A DNA stretch of 64,000 bases, from assembly GCF_022828475.1 (NCBI RefSeq), contig NZ_CP059557.1, positions 2,108,001 to 2,172,000 on the forward strand. Direction: 5' to 3'. The DNA is from Saccharopolyspora gloriosae (GTDB lineage Bacteria; Actinomycetota; Actinomycetes; Mycobacteriales; Pseudonocardiaceae). The position numbers and the translations under genes are program-made. The notes under the pieces were generated by a model, which was not told the DNA's origin, ran no database searches, and saw only the letters and a program-made list of their open reading frames with translations. Positions 1-14,757 of the stretch are shown here, one piece after another; the first letter of the stretch is position 1; each line of letters starts with the position of its first letter.

Positions 1-364
1 TTGGCCTGGTCGTGGGCCTTCCTGGCTTGAGCTGTCGCAGCCTCGCCTTCGTCCCATAATGTGATTGCCTCGGCTGCTTGGTCGTGTGCCCAGCGGAGCG
101 TGTTGGCGTATGCCGAAAGTGCGGCCGCCGTGGTTTCGAAGGCGTCAGCACCTTGAAGCCAGCGGGGTGGCTCGTAGGAGAAACGATCTCGAAAAGCATC
201 GCCGCGGCACCCTGCCATGCACCGCTGTCGATCTCCTTAAGACCTGTGCCAGCTCGGTCAAGTGCACTGCCTCGAGCGCGAAGAGCGTGAACGTCTCGGT
301 CAATCGCCGCGGGGTCGCCCGGGATCAGTTGTCTGGGGTCGTGGGTCTGGCCGAGCTCAGCCAT
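1..364 (-). pseudogene. Putative type VII-secreted toxin N-terminus, frameshifted and cut by window edge
   Basis: The reading frame opens at an ATG at 364 that overlaps the end of the WXG100-like gene. It starts MAELGQTHDPRQLIPGDP and runs to GAWQGAAAMLFE. This is the N-terminal helical secretion-signal module of large actinobacterial polymorphic toxins exported by type VII (ESX) systems. Near 183-191 the homology jumps to the -1/+2 frame, which then continues with SYEPPRWLQGADAFETTAAA and a long helix ending LWDEGEAATAQARKAHDQA at the window edge. Adding one base restores one open frame. The toxic C-terminal domain lies outside the window. Seen: both frames and the break. Known: the family layout. 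Inferred: one gene inactivated, or one sequencing error. Confidence 0.72.
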
Positions 365-686
365 CGGCCGCGTCCTGAGCAGGATCGGAGCCCGCACCGA
401 CAGAGCGCATCGATTGCACGGCAGCGTGATCGGCTTCTACGTAGGAATCCATCGAGGCATTGAGGGCTTGCACGAGAGTGTCGCCGTCGTCGATGAGCGT
501 GTTGAGGGCCTTTTCCCAGCGATCGCAGAAGTGCTTGAACGAGGCGTGGACGCCGGCGTGACCGTAGTCGCCGCTGGGGCCGTCGATGTCGCCAAGCGGC
601 TTAGATCCCATGTCTTCGATGGTCTGCGAGATCGCTTGGCCGGTCTGGTCCAGGGCGGTCAGATCGACTTGAAAGCCGTCTGGCAT
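357..686 (-). CDS. WXG100/EspC-like ESX secretion partner
   Basis: A 109-residue, probably all-helical protein with the size and spacing of WXG100-superfamily secretion partners: helix, short turn with glycines around residues 40-45, then a helix with FKHFCDRWEKALNTLIDD. A clear GGAG ribosome site precedes the ATG at 686. The stop overlaps the start of the toxin gene by a few bases, so the two are translationally coupled. It is expected to pair with the toxin N-terminus or chaperone its export. The exact subfamily is uncertain. Confidence 0.65.
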   Translation of the reverse strand: MPDGFQVDLTALDQTGQAISQTIEDMGSKPLGDIDGPSGDYGHAGVHASFKHFCDRWEKALNTLIDDGDTLVQALNASMDSYVEADHAAVQSMRSVGAGSDPAQDAADG

Positions 687-700
687 GGGCGTTGATCTCC

Positions 701-1093
701 TTACTCACCCACGTGCGCCGGTGCGCTGGCGAATCGGGCTGCCCCGTTCGGCTGTGGTATCAGCGGTAAGCCGTGCTCCTCGCCGACGTCGAAGAGCACG
801 CCGATGGCGGGCGGAAGCTGTTCCAGCAGGTCTTCCCCTGTAGTGCACATCCATGGGACGTCCTTGTGGAAGGCGGCGAGTCGTTCCATGGTCGAGAAGG
901 CAAGCACCCACTGGCTGTTGTCTGGGAGCATCGAAACGATTACCCCAGGACGCTGGCTGCGGCTACGCTGCGCGTACACGGTGGCCTGGGCGAAGGCGGC
1001 ATCGAACTCGGCCGCTTTGCTCCGTAGCGATCGGACAGCGCCTGCGATGCGGACAATCGAAGGCTCATCTAAGTCCATGCCGACATCACGCAT
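701..1093 (-). CDS. SseB-like domain protein, type VII toxin operon
   Basis: 130 residues. The C-terminal half resembles the SseB N-terminal domain: a strand, WVLAFSTMERLAAF, then DLLEQLPPAIGVLFDVGEEHGL. SseB-like proteins are common accessory genes next to ESX-secreted toxins; their biochemical role is unknown. It is the first gene of the leftward set SseB-like, WXG100-like, toxin, with 14 bases to the next gene. An in-frame ATG five codons in (1078) is an alternative start. Confidence 0.55.
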   Translation of the reverse strand: MRDVGMDLDEPSIVRIAGAVRSLRSKAAEFDAAFAQATVYAQRSRSQRPGVIVSMLPDNSQWVLAFSTMERLAAFHKDVPWMCTTGEDLLEQLPPAIGVLFDVGEEHGLPLIPQPNGAARFASAPAHVGE

Positions 1094-3620: not shown

Positions 3621-3781
3621 CTCAGAATGAAAGCAGCATCGCCTCGCAAGGGCGAAACGTGCTTCCGCCGTGTCGGCCACCATTCGGGAGTGGCGACGTC
3701 AGGTGGCTTGGCGGTCTACGGGCCGACCGGCGTTTTGGCTTTCGGCCAGGACTAGCCATGCCTGATCGGTAGGGTGCGGGT

Positions 3782-4831
3782 ATGGGACCGAGTTCCGACA
3801 GGGTGGGTCGGGTAGGCGTGCACGGGGTTGCGCTGCTGGTCGTCGGCGAGCTTGGTTGGAAGTTCCGCGAACAGCACGAGTCCGACTGGGGAATCGACGC
3901 GATCATCGAGGTCGCTGACGAGGACCAGCCGACGAGTCGACTGATCGCCTTGCAGATCAAGTGCGGCGATGCCCGCCTGGACCGATTGCACCGGGACGGA
4001 AGATGGCCCCTGTACGGGGAAAAGCGTCATCTGATGAGGTGGCTTGAGTATCCGATACCGGTCGTAGTGGTCCTCTACGACCCCACGCGCCGCACAGCGT
4101 ACTGGCAGCACGTCAACGATCGCACCGCCGCATGGACCCCAGCAGGCTTCAGAATCGACGTGCCCGAAAGTCAGCCTCTTGACGCAGCGGCCTCGGCCAC
4201 GCTACGTGCGGTGGCTGAGCAGTGGGTGCCGCAGCGCGGTACCAGCCGATCTCGTGCGCTGCATGCGCTTGCGACCTGTACTGCGGCCAGTGTGCCCGTA
4301 CCTCCGACAGAGCAGCTCTGGACCCTGTTCGCCCGAGGGGCGGACACGAACCTGCGTGCGGCGGTCCACGCCTTCGGCCTGCCTCTGATCGGCGAGGCTC
4401 CGGCCGTACATCTGTTGGCAGGTGCTCACACGCCGATCACGCTGAGCATGGACGATCGAGGGCTGTGGAGCGTGCCGCCCGGTACGACCGTCTTTGTCTG
4501 CGAAAACCTGGGGATCATCGACGTTGCCGCGGCCGTGCTGGGAACGGACTGTCGGCCCCTGGTGTGCTTGGGCGGATTCCCGTCGCTGGCCACGGAATAC
4601 CTGTTGATCGGCCTCGGCGCGTGTGGTGCGCGTCTGCGGGTCCACGTCGATCACGACACGGTTGGTCGCCAAATCACTGATTCTCTGTTCGTGCGCAGCG
4701 TGCCTTTCGAAACCTGGCGTCCGATAGGGCAAGACTGCCAGGGCATGCTCGGGGAAGAGGAAGAGTGTCTGCCAGCGATGCTTGCCGATCTTGCGGGCGA
4801 GCCGACTACGATCGACTCAAGCAAGGCATAG
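3782..4831 (+). CDS. DUF4365 (PD-(D/E)XK-like) fused to DUF2399-type Toprim domain
   Basis: 349 residues, a single-gene unit transcribed away from the leftward pair. Residues 8-125 match the DUF4365 pattern: VGRVGVHGVALLVVGELGW, then SDWGIDAIIEV (D39) and ALQIK (Q58, K60), the PD-(D/E)XK order, followed by PIPVVVVLYDPTRRTAYWQ. Residues about 150-345 resemble DUF2399, the Toprim-like C-terminal domain of TIGR02679/JetD-type proteins: TVFVCEN (E241), PLVCLGGFPS, ARLRVHVDHDTVG with an acidic DxD pair (D290, D292). The acidic pattern fits a metal-dependent Toprim nuclease. No partner gene is adjacent. Domain naming is from motif reading; joint nuclease or defence function is inference. The start lacks a strong ribosome site. 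Confidence 0.7.
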   Translation: MGPSSDRVGRVGVHGVALLVVGELGWKFREQHESDWGIDAIIEVADEDQPTSRLIALQIKCGDARLDRLHRDGRWPLYGEKRHLMRWLEYPIPVVVVLYDPTRRTAYWQHVNDRTAAWTPAGFRIDVPESQPLDAAASATLRAVAEQWVPQRGTSRSRALHALATCTAASVPVPPTEQLWTLFARGADTNLRAAVHAFGLPLIGEAPAVHLLAGAHTPITLSMDDRGLWSVPPGTTVFVCENLGIIDVAAAVLGTDCRPLVCLGGFPSLATEYLLIGLGACGARLRVHVDHDTVGRQITDSLFVRSVPFETWRPIGQDCQGMLGEEEECLPAMLADLAGEPTTIDSSKA

Positions 4832-4898: not shown

Positions 4899-5786
4899 TC
4901 AGGTGCCCAGCCGCCCGCAGCAGTGACTGGTTCCGGCCTGGGGTGGGCTGTCCAAGGATTGGGCAGCCCACCCGCGGCTCCACTGCTCATTCCGCTGCTG
5001 CCAGACCGTTCCGGGTTGGCGGTGCAGGCGGATGTGGCGGGTGAGGACGCGGGCTCGTTTCGAGCCGATGCTGAGCTTTCGGCGGAGGGTGTCGGCGGAG
5101 ATCGGGCGTTGGTAGAGATTCCAGTGTTCGGCGTCGAGCCGGCATGCCTCTTCGCACAGGGAATCAGCGTCCTCGCCGTGCGATACCGCTGAGTCAGCGT
5201 CGGTGGCGTTGGCGCTGTGACCAGGCGCGTTATTCACGACGGTGCGTAACGCTGGCACATCCTCAGCCTCCTCGGGAGTCTCCAGTGTCTGGCTGGCTCC
5301 GTCCGGGGCGGCCGATTCCGGCTGTGCTGCGTTGGGCTCTTCGGCCTCGGGAATGATCCCATTCGCTGTCTCCGCGCGGCGCCGCTTGAGTGCCTGGTTG
5401 AGCAGTTCGACCGACAGCAGCAGCGCCAGCGGTGGACAGGCGGCCACGGCTATGGAGAATGCGTTCAATTCGGGGGCGGAGGCGATGTTGGCGCACAGCG
5501 AGAGCCCGATGCCGAAGGTGAACGACAGCCATGCCTTCCACTTCCCGGTTGCGTGATACCGGTGACCAGCCTTCCACAGTTCGATTGTCGCCATCGTCAG
5601 CAACCCATCGACAATGAGCGGCCAGATCGTGGCGGTGGTCTCGTCGGCTCCGAACCGCAGAGCGAACTCGCGGCCGTGCCGGTAGGAGACGTATGCAGCG
5701 CCCAAGGCCACCAGCAGCGTGCACGCGCACTGCAGATGCAGTGATCGATCGGTGGCAGGGCTCGATATGGATGGCGTGCTGTTCAT
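4899..5786 (-). CDS. DUF2637 integrative-element membrane protein with C-terminal wHTH-like domain
   Basis: 295 residues. Four predicted membrane segments lie between residues 18 and 135, with the DUF2637 signature around [22 protein letters not shown]2637 proteins are typical of actinomycete integrative and conjugative elements and plasmids, where related Spd/Tra membrane proteins help spread DNA between hyphae. After an acidic linker, residues 208-262 form a small helical domain ([20 protein letters not shown], then [14 protein letters not shown]) shared with the second DUF2637 protein of this island. No replication, integrase or FtsK-like gene lies beside it, so the element is probably incomplete. 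Confidence 0.75.
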
Positions 5787-6120: not shown

Positions 6121-6231
6121 GAGCTGATGGTCCCGTGAGCCGGCACGTTAGCCCGTGGTCCTCTAAGCGATACGCGAAGTGCGTCTGAGATCTCAGGGTT
6201 GAGCGTTCGTTTTTGCAGTGGTGCCCGACGC

Positions 6232-6321
6232 GGAACCTTCCTCGCGTGCGCGGGGCCGACACGTTTCCTTCGGAAACAGGGACCGAAATCCAGGAACTAT
6301 CCCCGCGTGCGCGGGGCCGAC
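6232..6321. CRISPR. Two-repeat, one-spacer type I-E-like CRISPR remnant
   Basis: Two copies of a 29-base repeat lie at 6232-6260 and 6293-6321 with four mismatches near the 5' end. The conserved core is CGCGTGCGCGGGGCCGAC, with the GC-rich palindrome typical of type I-E repeats of actinobacteria. They enclose a 32-base spacer at 6261-6292, exactly the type I-E geometry (61-base period). No third repeat is found 61 bases either side, and no cas gene or leader is in the window. It is an orphan mini-array or a remnant carried by the mobile element. Confidence 0.65.
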
Positions 6322-6609
6322 ACTTCTTGACCTGGTGGTTTATCTCTGGCAGGGCTGGTTTTCATTCACTCCGGATCGCGGGCAGGCGTGGAGCTTGGTC
6401 GTCGGGTTCATGTGCTCTCGGTTCGCAGTGCGGCGGCGTAGGTGAGTGTGGGCGTTGTTGTGAAGATCACCTGACTGGGTGACCACGGAATCCTCCCACT
6501 GCGCGCCCCCATTTCGCGGGCGCGGACGAAATCCTCCCAAAATCCTCCCAAAAATCGGCACAGCCGGTCCGGGGAGATCCACTACGAGATCGACACCGCA
6601 ACATCGAAA

Positions 6610-6648
6610 AGCCCGCTGACCTGCACTTTCGTGCTAGATCAGCGGGCT
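6610..6648 (-). terminator. Inverted repeat downstream of tRNA-Pro fragment
   Basis: A 10-bp perfect stem AGCCCGCTGA/TCAGCGGGCT with a 19-base loop lies 11 bases beyond the tRNA-Pro 3' end in its transcription direction. It looks like the original tRNA terminator, kept with the displaced 3' half. Confidence 0.5.
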
Positions 6649-6658
6649 CTCGCGACCG

Positions 6659-6700
6659 TCGGGACGGCGGGATTCGAACCCACGACCCCTTGACCCCCAG
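6659..6700 (-). other. tRNA-Pro(GGG) 3' half, probable attachment-site remnant
   Basis: Read leftward, the 42 bases start in the anticodon loop (CTGGGGGTCAAGG), continue through a canonical T arm (GTGGGTTCGAATCCC) and end with the acceptor strand CGTCCCG and discriminator A. The 5' half is absent: the bases to the right do not pair with the anticodon or acceptor strands. Integrative elements that use tRNA-Pro carry exactly such 3' halves to rebuild the gene, leaving a displaced copy at one end. No full tRNA-Pro occurs in this window. Confidence 0.7.
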
Positions 6701-6853
6701 TAGTGGGGTGGAGTTCGAGGCATAAGTTTGTGTTCATTGCCAGCCGAGTGCGCACGGCGCGGTATGGGGCGACCTGGCAAAAGATACCTGGCGAAGGGCT
6801 TCGATCATCTGGTTACCTTCATGCCGGTTCGGATGCATCTGTGTGGACGCCAG

Positions 6854-7576
6854 TTAGACGGGGGTGGGTAGCGTGGTCGGTTGGTAGCGACTTCGAACGT
6901 TGCGAGTCAGCTTGCGCGCAGGTTCAGCGCCGATGCGAAGTTCGCGTCGGAGGGCTTCGGCGGAGATCGGTCGCTGGTGTTTCGCCCAGTGCTCGATGTC
7001 CAAACGGCAGGCCGCAGCCAGGAGCGGGCCGCCCGCATCTTCGGTCTCTGAGAGTATGGCGACGGTGCCGTCGTTGTTGTGATCAGTAGGGCCGTTCTCG
7101 TGAGAAGGGCGCGTTGGTTGCACTGCTGATTGCGATTCAGCATCGAAGGGCTGGTCATGCTGAGGGTGCTCGGAGATCTCGTGGATCGCCTGCAGCACGT
7201 TGGGGCCGACCTCTGCCCACCCAATGAGCAACAGTGGTCCGACTGCGTCGAAGGCGGCTTTGCCGAACTGGCCAGCGCACACTGGTTCGGCCACGTTTAG
7301 GGCCAGAGTGACAATGCTGGCAAACATCAACAAACGTTGGGCGGGACGCAGTTGGTCCGGGGTTGCTCCGTGGAGGGCCAAGTGCCGGGTACCGACCAGC
7401 AAGCCAAGAACGGACAGATCGACGGCGGGCGCAACCAGTGGTGCCACGTACGGCGGCACTCCGAGCCTCAGGCCCAGGCCAAGGACGTTGCCGAATCCGA
7501 ACAGGAATGTCAGTGCGACGACAGTTCCAATGATCACTGTCAACGAACGCAGGACAGTGTCGCGGGTAGTGGTCAT
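6854..7576 (-). CDS. DUF2637-like membrane protein, second paralogue, with shared C-terminal domain
   Basis: 240 residues with four predicted membrane segments in residues 10-120 (FGFGNVLGLGLRLGVPPYV; APAVDLSVLGLLVG) in the DUF2637/SpdB style. An acidic linker follows, then a C-terminal helical domain (CRLDIEHWAKHQRPISAEAL, IGAEPARKLTRNVRS) closely similar to that of the DUF2637 protein at 4899-5786 although the membrane halves have diverged. The shared tail looks like a small winged-helix DNA-binding or docking domain. The gene ends about 100 bases from the tRNA-Leu 3' end, so it is the last island gene on this side. Confidence 0.65.
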   Translation of the reverse strand: MTTTRDTVLRSLTVIIGTVVALTFLFGFGNVLGLGLRLGVPPYVAPLVAPAVDLSVLGLLVGTRHLALHGATPDQLRPAQRLLMFASIVTLALNVAEPVCAGQFGKAAFDAVGPLLLIGWAEVGPNVLQAIHEISEHPQHDQPFDAESQSAVQPTRPSHENGPTDHNNDGTVAILSETEDAGGPLLAAACRLDIEHWAKHQRPISAEALRRELRIGAEPARKLTRNVRSRYQPTTLPTPV

Positions 7577-7674
7577 CCCAGGTCACCAGCCTGGGCGCGC
7601 CGCCGACGAGCGATGGTGAACCGTGCCGATAGTCGCAGCTCACGGCCGGAACAGCGCTGTGACGATGCTGTACG

Positions 7675-7748
7675 TGCCCCCGGTCAGAGTCGAACTGACA
7701 CTGTACGGATTTTGAGTCCGCCGCCTCTGCCGATTGGGCTACGGGGGC
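7675..7748 (-). tRNA. tRNA-Leu (anticodon CAA)
   Basis: A 74-base cloverleaf on the minus strand: acceptor GCCCCCG/CGGGGGC, anticodon stem GCGGA/TCCGT with loop CTCAAAA (anticodon CAA), T arm GTCAG-TTCGACT-CTGAC, discriminator A. No CCA is encoded. The variable region is short for a leucine tRNA. Its 3' end faces the accessory island (1-7,670) and its 5' side faces conserved chromosome, the usual geometry for island insertion at a tRNA 3' end. Confidence 0.88.
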
Positions 7749-7973
7749 TAGGCGAGAGACAGCTTACGGGAGTGGTGATCACCGTGCGCGGGTGGGGGTG
7801 CGGTGGCGGTGCTGGGGCGAAGCCTGCTGGTAGTGCTGGTGTGACGTGTTGGAAACCGGTGTCAGGATGGTCACCCTCCCTGGTCATCTCAGGGCGAGCG
7901 GCTGGCCGGTAAGCTGAATTTCCCCGGTGCGGGACCGCACTGGACCGTGTCAGAACTACCCCAGGAGGACCCG

Positions 7974-8585
7974 GTGACCACGCCGGCTGCCGAGGACCCA
8001 GGCGAGGCCAAGCCCGTCGAACGTCGCGTACTCGTGGCCGAGGACGAGGCGTTGATCAGGCTCGATCTGGTTGAGATGCTCAAAGAAGAGGGATACCAGG
8101 TCGTCGGTGAGGCCGGGGACGGGCAAGAAGCCGTGCGGCTGGCCGAGGAGCTGCGGCCTGACCTGGTGATCCTGGACATCAAGATGCCGAAGATGGACGG
8201 CATCGAAGCTGCTTCGAACATCGCGGGCGAGCGCATCGCGCCCGTGGTGATCCTCACCGCTTTCAGCCAGCGCGACCTGGTGGAGCGTGCGCGGGACGCG
8301 GGGGCGATGGCCTACTTGGTCAAGCCGTTCGCGAAGCGCGACCTGGTGCCCGCGGTGGAGCTCGCGGTGTCCCGGTTCACCGAGGTGCAGGCGTTGGAGG
8401 CGGAAGTCGCCGACCTCACCGAGCGGCTCGAGGCGCGCAAGACGATCGAACGCGCCAAGGGTCTGCTCATGAGCAAGCACAACCTCTCCGAGCCCGAGTC
8501 GTTCCGCTGGTTGCAGCGGACCGCGATGGACCGCCGGACCACGATGAAGGCCGTGGCCCAGGCGGTGCTCGAGAACCTGGAGTGA
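7974..8585 (+). CDS. pdtaR: ANTAR-domain response regulator (PdtaR type)
   Basis: About 203 residues from a GTG at 7974, chosen because AGGAGG lies five bases upstream; an ATG-like start 27 bases earlier has no ribosome site. The receiver domain carries the acidic pocket (VAEDEA), the phospho-acceptor Asp in LVILDIKMPKMDG and the Lys in YLVKPF. The C-terminal ANTAR domain is seen as LEARKTIERAKGLLMSKHNL and RWLQRTAMDRRTTM; ANTAR domains bind paired hairpins in nascent mRNA and prevent termination. M. tuberculosis PdtaR (Rv1626) pairs with the sensor PdtaS; no kinase is adjacent here. Position beside polA matches the mycobacterial order. Confidence 0.92.
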   Translation: MTTPAAEDPGEAKPVERRVLVAEDEALIRLDLVEMLKEEGYQVVGEAGDGQEAVRLAEELRPDLVILDIKMPKMDGIEAASNIAGERIAPVVILTAFSQRDLVERARDAGAMAYLVKPFAKRDLVPAVELAVSRFTEVQALEAEVADLTERLEARKTIERAKGLLMSKHNLSEPESFRWLQRTAMDRRTTMKAVAQAVLENLE

Positions 8586-12690: not shown

Positions 12691-14757
12691 TCACAACGCC
12701 AGTTCGGGCTTGAGGCGACCTGGCGTCCACACTCGTTGCCGCCACGCGGCGATGGTGCTCAGCACCAGCCCGGCGACCAGGTAGGCGAGCAGCACCAGCG
12801 CGGAAGTGCCCGCGGTCTCCAGCCCCGGCCCGCCGTAGAGCAGGTGCCGCAGCGCGCTCACCACGTAGCTCAGCGGCAACAGCTGGTGCAGCGGGTGCAG
12901 TGGTGCGGGGATCGTCTGCCACGGGAAGGTGCCGCCTGCGGTGACCAGCTGCAGCACCAGGACGATCAGCGCGATGAACTTGCCCTTCGGCCCGAACGCC
13001 GCGTTCAGCGCGTGCACCACGGACGTGAACGCGAACGAGGTGAGCACCAGGAACCCGAGCGTCAGCCACGGGTGGGCCGGCTGCACGCCCACGCCGAACA
13101 CGACGACGAGGTGCAGCAGCACCGCCTGCGCGATGCCCACCACCGCCGCCGGGATCCATCCGCCGAGCGCCACCTTCCAGGCAGCAACACCCGCGGCGAG
13201 CGCCCGCTGCGACAGCGGCCGCATGATCAGGAACAGCACGAACCCGCCGATCCACAACGCCAGACCCATGAAGAACGGAGCCAGGCCCGCGCCGTAGGTG
13301 CCTGCCTTGACCTGCGCGTCGTTGCTCACGGCCACCGGGTCTCCGATGGTGCGCGCGGTGTTCTCCCTAGTGGCGTCGTCGAGGCTGGGGATGTCCTCGG
13401 CGCCCTTGCCGAGTTCGTCGGCCAGGGTGTGCGATCCGTCGACGAGCTGGCCCGAGCCGTTCGCGAGCCGGTGGGAGCCGTCGGCCAGCCGGTCGGCGCC
13501 GTCGGTGAGCTTGGTGGTGCCGGTGACGGCCTGTTGCTCGCCCTGGTGCAGTTGCCGGGCGCCCGAGTCCAGCTCGCCCGCGCCGTTGGCGAGAGTTCCG
13601 GCGCCGTCGTTGAGCTGTCCGATGGCGCCGGTCAACGCGGGTGTCGAGTCGGCGAGCTTGCGGTTGCCGTCGGCGACCTGCCGGGCACCGCCCGCGAGGG
13701 TGTCGAGCTGACCGATCTGGCCCTGCACCTTGTCGTTGGCGTCGTTGATGGGCTGGTTCAGCTCGTCGAGCCCGTCGAGCACCTTCTGCACGGTCGCCTC
13801 GTCGGCTCCCGTGGCGCGCAACTGCTCGGCGATGCGGGTCTTGGTCTGCTCCAAGTCGTCGACGAAGCCCTGCGAGACGTCGCCGAGCCTGCCCGCGGTG
13901 CCGGCGAGCTTCTCGTTGCCCTGTGCGACCTGTTCGGCCCCGTCGGCGAGCTTCTCCGACTGCTCCGGCAACGGCGCGGTGCGTTCCTGCAACTGCTGCA
14001 GGCCGCCGCGCAGCTGCTCGGCGCCGGAGCTGAGCCGGCCGGTGCCGTCCACGAGCCTGCCGGAACCGTCCAGCAGCGCCTGCTGCCCGTCGAGCAGCTG
14101 GTGGGCGCCGGAGGAGAGCTGCGCGGTGCCGTCCTCGGCGGTGCCGAGACCGTCCCGAAGCTCGCCCGCCCCGTCGGCGAGCTTGCCCGCGCCGTCGGCG
14201 GCCTGGATCGTCTTTTCGTGCACCGTGCCGAAGCCCATCAGCAGCTGATCGGCGGCTTCGGTGCCTGCGTCGGCGGCGACGGCTTTGCGGACCTCGCCCG
14301 CGACCTTGTCGGCGATGGTGGAGATCAAGTAGTTGTTCGTGTCGTTGGTGACCAGCCGCAGTTGCGCCTGCCGCGGCTCGAAATCTCCTGGCGACATCAG
14401 CGCGGCGGAGAAGTCACGCGGCACCACCAGCGCGAACGTGTACTTGCCCTGCGCGACGCCCTGTTCGGCGTCCTGGGAACCGGTCCGCTCCCAGTCGAAC
14501 GAGCCGGAGTTCTCCAGTTCGTCGTAGACCTTGTCCCCGGCGTCGAGTTTGCTGCCATCGTCGCGGGTGGCGCCCTCGTCGTCGACCACCACGGCGGCGG
14601 GCACCGAACCGAGCCGGTTGTACGGATCCCAGTTGGCGTAGAGGTACATCGCGCCGTACAGCAGCGGCACGAGCGTGATCGCCACCAGGGCGAGCCGGGG
14701 GAGTTTGCCGGAGGTCAGCCTGCGCAGTTCGGTCAAGGCGAGGCGGAACGTGGTCAT
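12691..14757 (-). CDS. YhgE/Pip-family ABC-2-type exporter with long periplasmic coiled coil
   Basis: 688 residues from an ATG at 14757 that overlaps the stop of the ATPase-like gene (ATGA), so the two are translationally coupled. An N-terminal membrane helix (about residues 18-37, ALVAITLVPLLYGAMYLYAN) is followed by a large extracytoplasmic region of repeated DGAxxLxxGxxxL units (about 150-440) typical of YhgE/Pip phage-receptor-like proteins, then five or six C-terminal membrane helices (about 475-680). Family members resemble MmpL-like or ABC-2 exporters; substrates are mostly unknown. The gene sits between polA and rpsA, an insertion relative to mycobacteria. Confidence 0.85.
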   Translation of the reverse strand: MTTFRLALTELRRLTSGKLPRLALVAITLVPLLYGAMYLYANWDPYNRLGSVPAAVVVDDEGATRDDGSKLDAGDKVYDELENSGSFDWERTGSQDAEQGVAQGKYTFALVVPRDFSAALMSPGDFEPRQAQLRLVTNDTNNYLISTIADKVAGEVRKAVAADAGTEAADQLLMGFGTVHEKTIQAADGAGKLADGAGELRDGLGTAEDGTAQLSSGAHQLLDGQQALLDGSGRLVDGTGRLSSGAEQLRGGLQQLQERTAPLPEQSEKLADGAEQVAQGNEKLAGTAGRLGDVSQGFVDDLEQTKTRIAEQLRATGADEATVQKVLDGLDELNQPINDANDKVQGQIGQLDTLAGGARQVADGNRKLADSTPALTGAIGQLNDGAGTLANGAGELDSGARQLHQGEQQAVTGTTKLTDGADRLADGSHRLANGSGQLVDGSHTLADELGKGAEDIPSLDDATRENTARTIGDPVAVSNDAQVKAGTYGAGLAPFFMGLALWIGGFVLFLIMRPLSQRALAAGVAAWKVALGGWIPAAVVGIAQAVLLHLVVVFGVGVQPAHPWLTLGFLVLTSFAFTSVVHALNAAFGPKGKFIALIVLVLQLVTAGGTFPWQTIPAPLHPLHQLLPLSYVVSALRHLLYGGPGLETAGTSALVLLAYLVAGLVLSTIAAWRQRVWTPGRLKPELAL

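Follow-up and report, generated by a model that had tools for sequence, protein, structure and literature searches.

A single gene of Saccharopolyspora gloriosae encodes a protein in which a DUF4365 nuclease domain is joined to a Toprim domain of the JetD type. The gene lies in a stretch of 64,000 nucleotides of contig NZ_CP059557.1, here called the window. An annotation made earlier from the letters of the DNA (the sequence-only reading) had proposed this fusion, and we found both Pfam families far above their cut-offs. The reading frame is uninterrupted and runs from the ATG at 3782 to the TAG at 4829-4831, which gives 349 amino acids (aa). DUF4365 (PF14280) covers residues 10-144 with 93.8 bits (E=1.3e-26; cut-off 24.3), and DUF2399 (PF09664) covers residues 230-313 with 57.5 bits (E=1.8e-15; cut-off 23.4). 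No other Pfam family was detected in a search up to E=10, in which the HMMER filters remove most weak matches. In NCBIfam the sole match was TIGR02679 (residues 160-316). Its score of 73.6 bits is far below the whole-protein cut-off of 196, which fits a protein that lacks the N-terminal half of that family. The top two models of PADLOC were type II JetD (residues 178-313, E=1.4e-20) and Aga_REase (residues 5-147, E=7.3e-20), the latter being covered over profile positions 8-145 of 429 only. Judged from the sequence, the DUF4365 domain stands where the N-terminal part of JetD was, and is not added to a whole JetD.

The sequence-only reading had also suggested looking for the same architecture in other genomes. 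It turned out to be present at full length in two, at loci L034 (genome G007, 64% identity) and L035 (genome G160, 47% identity). Between the window and L034 copies the two domains are 70% and 66% identical. Identity falls to 52% over residues 147-229, where the linker lies and the JetD-like part begins. The same end-to-end architecture in two other genomes, together with purifying selection in both halves, confirms at the level of sequence comparison that the fusion is not due to chance or to an annotation error.

The two halves of the fusion protein

The sequence-only reading had placed the nuclease residues at D39, Q58 and K60. These residues are there, and they are invariant in the three full-length fusions and in 21 of 21 aligned DUF4365 rows. 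They fall in the alignment columns of D41, Q60 and K62 of NbaSPARDA, which are given as the catalytic positions of its DREN domain in the published account. The N-terminal domain has the PD-(D/E)XK fold, like the solved DREN. The N-terminal half belongs to the DREN-type PD-(D/E)XK nuclease domains, and the positions of proven catalytic role are all kept. DUF4365 is the DREN nuclease of SPARDA and no longer an orphan domain; the earlier label "nuclease-like" was right about the domain and can now be refined to DREN, replacing part of JetD. In SPARDA, as in the fusion, an N-terminal DUF4365/DREN with the same D-Q-K triad and spacing is an effector joined to a nucleic-acid sensor. However, SPARDA consists of DREN-APAZ and a short prokaryotic Argonaute, whereas the fusion has no APAZ match and its residues 150-349 are the JetD-type Toprim. 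No Argonaute (PIWI) family was found in a Pfam scan that covered six open reading frames of the window on either side of the gene.

We scanned 10 other DUF4365 proteins for the modules beside this domain. TPR arrays were found in two, an AAA-like region (below the curated cut-off) with TPR in one, and a Schlafen-type helicase in one. A further protein had a weak TPR match below the cut-off alone, and five had no other Pfam family. In these fusions DUF4365 is N-terminal, as in our protein, but is followed by an unrelated module; none of the 10 proteins, 5 of which are cut by the end of the locus, carried a Toprim. The DUF4365 domains nearest to that of the fusion, with 51% identity (L033/L052, one Actinacidiphila locus) and 48% identity (L053), are joined to TPR_10 repeat arrays. 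Probably these proteins are one-protein sensor-effectors too. The protein at L016 (G271:C95) combines DUF4365 with a Schlafen group 3 DNA/RNA helicase domain.

The C-terminal half was compared with JetD proteins using hhalign. A profile of the three fusions placed residues 193-345 on columns 266-448 of eight type II JetD proteins (JetD2) with 99.5%, and the comparison with five more distant JetDs gave 99.2%. The Toprim half therefore aligns with the whole C-terminal part of type II JetD. Together with the PF09664 match, this bears out the JetD-type/DUF2399 assignment of the sequence-only reading. In an alignment of 14 rows (3 fusions and 11 JetDs), E241, N242, D290, D292, G295 and E327 do not vary in any row. 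E241, D290 and D292 are thus where they had been placed, also in all three full-length fusions, and no homologue without these acidic residues was found among the rows. An additional acidic pair, E326/E327, had been overlooked and is invariant in the three fusions. With the type II JetD of Wadjet (TIGR02679/DUF2399) the fusion shares the whole C-terminal Toprim, including the E, the DxD and the C-terminal E. It differs in having DREN instead of the N-terminal part, in lying outside any jetABCD operon, and in its score against TIGR02679.

Against type I JetD_C, the joint set of type II JetDs and fusions reached no more than 67.7% (E=4.9e-5); in this alignment the E-N motifs of the two sides coincide, and so do the DxD motifs. 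The type I JetD_C profile in turn matches MksG 8b7f (5e-30) and the JetD structures 8q72, which is JetD(E248A), and 7til (both 4e-20). A profile of the 14-row type II/fusion set searched against the PDB gave no JetD and one chance-level match. The fold-comparison list contained no Toprim; its rows lie almost only over residues 1-150. The type I JetD/MksG proteins (DUF3322 + JetD_C) share the E-N and D-x-D-x-x-G Toprim pattern with the fusion, but they depend on SMC, and the similarity is distant: the fusion profile by itself misses it, and it emerges once type II JetDs and fusions are combined. Since the link to solved Toprims is indirect (from type II to type I JetD_C and on to JetD/MksG), the assignment of the C-terminal domain to the JetD2 type is firm on sequence grounds, and its assignment to Toprim is weaker, although well supported. 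The C-terminal half thus very probably corresponds to the Toprim core of the JetD of type II Wadjet; its acidic residues are intact, and the N-terminal arm of JetD is gone.

Table 1. Features of the fusion gene and its surroundings (positions in the window)
Feature	Position	Strand	Remark
Fusion gene, DUF4365/DREN nuclease domain + JetD-type Toprim	3782..4831	+	349 aa
DUF4365 (DREN, PD-(D/E)XK) domain, residues 10-144	3809..4213	+	Pfam PF14280
Codons of D39 (3896-3898), Q58 (3953-3955) and K60 (3959-3961), putative metal/catalytic triad	3896..3961	+	
JetD-type Toprim, residues 193-345	4358..4816	+	hhalign to the C-terminal part of type II JetD
Codons of E241 (4502-4504), D290 (4649-4651), D292 (4655-4657) and E326/E327 (4757-4762), Toprim acidic residues	4502..4762	+	
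TAGGGT, -10-like box of a probable leaderless promoter, 6 nt from the ATG	3770..3775	+	
Right-hand copy of the 1.45-kb direct repeat of the island, with CRISPR end, tRNA-Pro 3' end and small open reading frame	6230..7683	.	93.9% identical to the second copy

Distribution, origin and selection

The full-length fusion was found in 3 of 390 genomes of the family (S. gloriosae, G007 and G160), each of a different genus; an earlier draw of 297 family genomes gave the same three. The genome sets overlap, and the larger searches scored only the best five to seven candidates per genome. In a draw of 394 genomes of the class, five besides our own matched at E<=1e-20, in the DUF4365 part only, and no further fusion appeared. 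Among 394 genomes of the family of G512, three matched at E<=1e-35, again in the DUF4365 part only. The phylum draw (396 genomes) gave our own genome as the sole match. Within the genus of G007 (24 genomes), five matched at E<=1e-25 and one of them had the fusion, and in the genus of G160 (22 genomes) the one match was the fusion. Plasmids and phages were also searched. Of 72,556 plasmid records 25 matched, 24 in the DUF4365 part and one in the DUF2399 part, and none covered 80% of the query; 2 of 50,697 phages matched, in the DUF4365 part only. Two further scans relied on a few short conserved words, so that absence there is weak evidence: IMG/VR gave two DUF4365 loci and nothing with the fusion profile or the JetD profiles, and the genome contigs set gave one locus (L033) with the DUF4365 part only.

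In a midpoint-rooted tree of the Toprim domains, a 100/100 branch separates the three fusions, which have a long stem, from the 11 sampled JetDs. For this reason a single fusion event is the simplest reading. The tree does not nest the fused Toprim in any particular JetD2 clade that could be its parent lineage. The fusions and the JetD of L029 have in common a short Toprim without the usual insertion. We also considered whether 205-aa frames with a Toprim alone in G247 and G283 (L058, L059) could be a split version of the protein. They look like broken Wadjet remnants, with no DUF4365 in the stretch read, and were rejected.

The ratio of nonsynonymous to synonymous substitutions (dN/dS; Nei-Gojobori, window against L034) was about 0.12 for the DREN half and about 0.18 for the Toprim half, with dS already >1. 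These values point to purifying selection on both halves. A relative in G268 (L036:9790-9956) is a stub of 167 bp, 94% identical. It spans 35 bp of upstream sequence and codons 1-44, and nothing more of the gene is present. The stub suggests horizontal movement between genera and loss. The L036 genes preceding it look lanthipeptide-like by eye. A fusion without function, in decay or formed by accident in an island that is itself degraded, would fit this relative that ends after ~45 codons and also the CRISPR and transposase fragments of the island. Nevertheless, full-length architecture in three genera, invariant catalytic residues and a dN/dS of ~0.12-0.18 make this reading very improbable.

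Surroundings of the fusion gene

The fusion gene lies between two direct repeats, each with a tRNA-Pro(GGG) 3' end and the end of a CRISPR array. The second copy (G000:C1:2092949-2094390) is 21.3 kb upstream, outside the window; the identity was determined over 1457 columns. The sequence-only reading had described an island with mobile-element genes, a CRISPR remnant and a toxin operon. The CRISPR part is seen as two CRISPR-like repeats at 6232-6323. Transposase genes (partial Mutator, IS110) exist too, but further upstream in L038, outside the window. The toxin operon was not confirmed: at 357-1093 (minus strand) there are a weak WXG100-like gene, below the cut-off, and an SseB-like gene, possibly the genes that were meant, and no toxin family was recognised. 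It should be noted that the gene-finder run misses low-scoring foreign genes, the fusion gene among them.

The tRNA-Pro(GGG) 3' end occurs at five places of the genome, in the window and at G000:C1 2060673, 2093376, 2617729 and 2628007; its 34-mer is present in the window copy, in three exact copies and in one with a single mismatch. Each lies behind CRISPR repeats of a type I-E-like kind; the intact tRNA-Pro (L063) has a single such repeat and the others have several, and L062 has a longer CRISPR array with a 61-nt period. A CRISPR array beside a tRNA gene seems to have been split and copied by mobile elements or rearrangements. The gene lists at the other copies (L065-L067) did not single out an integrated element; integrases were not searched by family.

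The downstream neighbour of the fusion gene is a DUF2637 gene (4899-5786, minus strand). A DUF2637 gene is also found ~3 kb from the G160 copy (blastn). It is common to the window and L035 only, in a different order, and was rejected as an obligate partner. In G160, a gene with a match to PD-T7-3 (L035:8478-9854, E=9.5e-22) lies directly upstream, 15 nt from the start of the fusion, and an AbiJ/Abi_C gene (7290-8132) and an Endonuclease VII-like gene (13476-14492) are nearby. This neighbourhood is a defence-like island, and a Wadjet-like four-gene set, recognised by gene sizes and a JetD match, is ~25 kb away (L037). The description of the gene as stand-alone fits the other two loci. In G007, three of the seven scanned neighbours match phage families (two of unknown function, one of a weak PAPS-reductase type), and DprA-like and YgjP-like genes follow further on.

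The -10-like box of Table 1 stands out in the window: among 520 plus-strand ATG triplets, the fusion gene has the only one with TANNNT at -12..-7. The same spacing is kept in L034 (TACCGT) and L036 (TACGGT) and is absent in L035. A -10-like box at this distance is the layout of actinobacterial leaderless promoters. The promoter of the fusion gene is thus probably leaderless, as far as can be judged from its sequence. The G160 copy, which has no box, probably shares the message of the upstream gene.

S. gloriosae has two complete type II Wadjet operons, JetA2-B2-C2-D2 (L039:1502-9858 and L040:9379-17411), and canonical JetD-like matches were also found in G007 and G160. This leaves room for a JetD paralogue that works with JetABC encoded elsewhere, as an alternative cutting subunit. 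Such a role is decidedly unlikely. The co-occurrence with canonical JetDs in all three genomes says little, since they are common in the family, and the fusion has lost all of JetD before the Toprim (~265 columns in the compared set). The published contacts between JetD and JetABC include the JetB IFDR motif (PMC10586767). In agreement with the sequence-only reading, there is no SMC partner nearby: no frame of at least 900 aa, the threshold taken for an SMC-sized gene, lies in the 20 kb around each copy (within ~10 kb at any of the three loci). As JetC has ~1300 aa, no JetC stands beside any of them. No JetA, JetB or JetC family was found among the flanking genes scanned at the three loci; the two operons of our own genome, which were recognised, served as a positive control.

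Possible function of the fusion protein

We propose, with about even confidence, that the fusion is a nuclease with sensor and effector in one protein, and most likely a defence against mobile DNA that is itself carried on mobile elements. No partner gene common to all three loci was found among the genes compared. Therefore, the defence role has to be argued from the history of the modules and from the mixed context. Several other observations also speak against this proposal. No recognised defence gene is adjacent to the fusion in the window, and the small number of genomes that have it (3 of 390) may be a sign that its function is marginal or limited to a niche. The fusion profile alone matched type I JetD_C weakly (0.4%). 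The structure model is poor in both halves: its predicted local distance difference test score (pLDDT) is 47-55 in blocks 31-70, the DREN part with the triad, and ~30-43, under 50, for residues 150-349, which were modelled from an alignment without JetD relatives. Finally, the Toprim could be a dimerisation or DNA-binding platform that no longer cuts.

Toprim is used as a defence nuclease outside Wadjet as well, in PARIS AriB, OLD/Gabija and Retron-Eco2. To our knowledge, these Toprims belong to other families, have ATPase or reverse transcriptase partners and no DREN domain. As the sequence-only reading supposed, no description of a DUF4365 + JetD-type Toprim architecture was found in the literature searched, which took in few subscription journals and no bioRxiv preprints.

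Type I JetD has an N-terminal CAP-like arm and a C-terminal Toprim by which it dimerises. One structure shows the DNA cleft closed by the arms, which was read as autoinhibition (PMC10586767 / PMC10123090). The Toprims of type I JetD/MksG form dimers that grip duplex DNA, and the cleft can stay blocked by the arm as long as the SMC complex has not released it. The fusion would then have lost both the SMC input and the arm-type lock. DREN alone is probably monomeric and inactive, and clustering would turn it into a non-specific nuclease. A domain that is inert until clustered, joined to a Toprim of a type known to dimerise on DNA, offers a ready mechanism of DNA-dependent DREN activation: the Toprim dimer, assembling on a DNA trigger, would bring the DREN domains close to one another and thereby activate them. 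Nicking or cutting of the trigger DNA by the Toprim itself may occur as well, and DREN could be activated with or without this cutting. Our guess is that the trigger is an unusual DNA form of invading plasmids, phages or conjugative elements (a branch, an end or a circle), and the outcome may be destruction of the DNA or of the infected cell. In this form the model is tentative, and we regard it as possible rather than probable that the SMC-free JetD Toprim is a DNA sensor and first cutter whose dimer or higher assembly on the trigger DNA licenses DREN as a collateral nuclease, with no ATPase, guide or partner. The 349 residues would then form an immunity in two stages against plasmids and phages, put together from parts of two other systems.

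A purely toxic function has to be considered too. The Toprim effector AriB of PARIS cuts tRNA (PMC12409363), and SPARDA is named for DNase/RNase-APAZ (PMC12205087). By analogy, the fusion could be a toxin-like abortive-infection effector that relies on DREN alone for catalysis, with the Toprim as an inactive scaffold or an RNA-binding part. This is quite unlikely, because none of the Toprim acidic residues has been lost and selection on the Toprim half is almost as strict as on the DREN half. An enzyme that processes DNA of integrative or conjugative elements, with PD-(D/E)XK and Toprim acting on junctions (resolution of branches, replication intermediates) and not in defence, is an unlikely alternative.

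In the current view, JetD stays locked while a loop-extruding SMC complex is still measuring a circle, and DREN stays locked as long as no Argonaute filament has clustered it. If the sensor-effector reading is true, the natural coupling of both cores without both regulators would show the minimum for safe control of a non-specific nuclease. The fusion would also be simple enough for sensing by the Toprim and activation of DREN to be probed one by one with point mutations.
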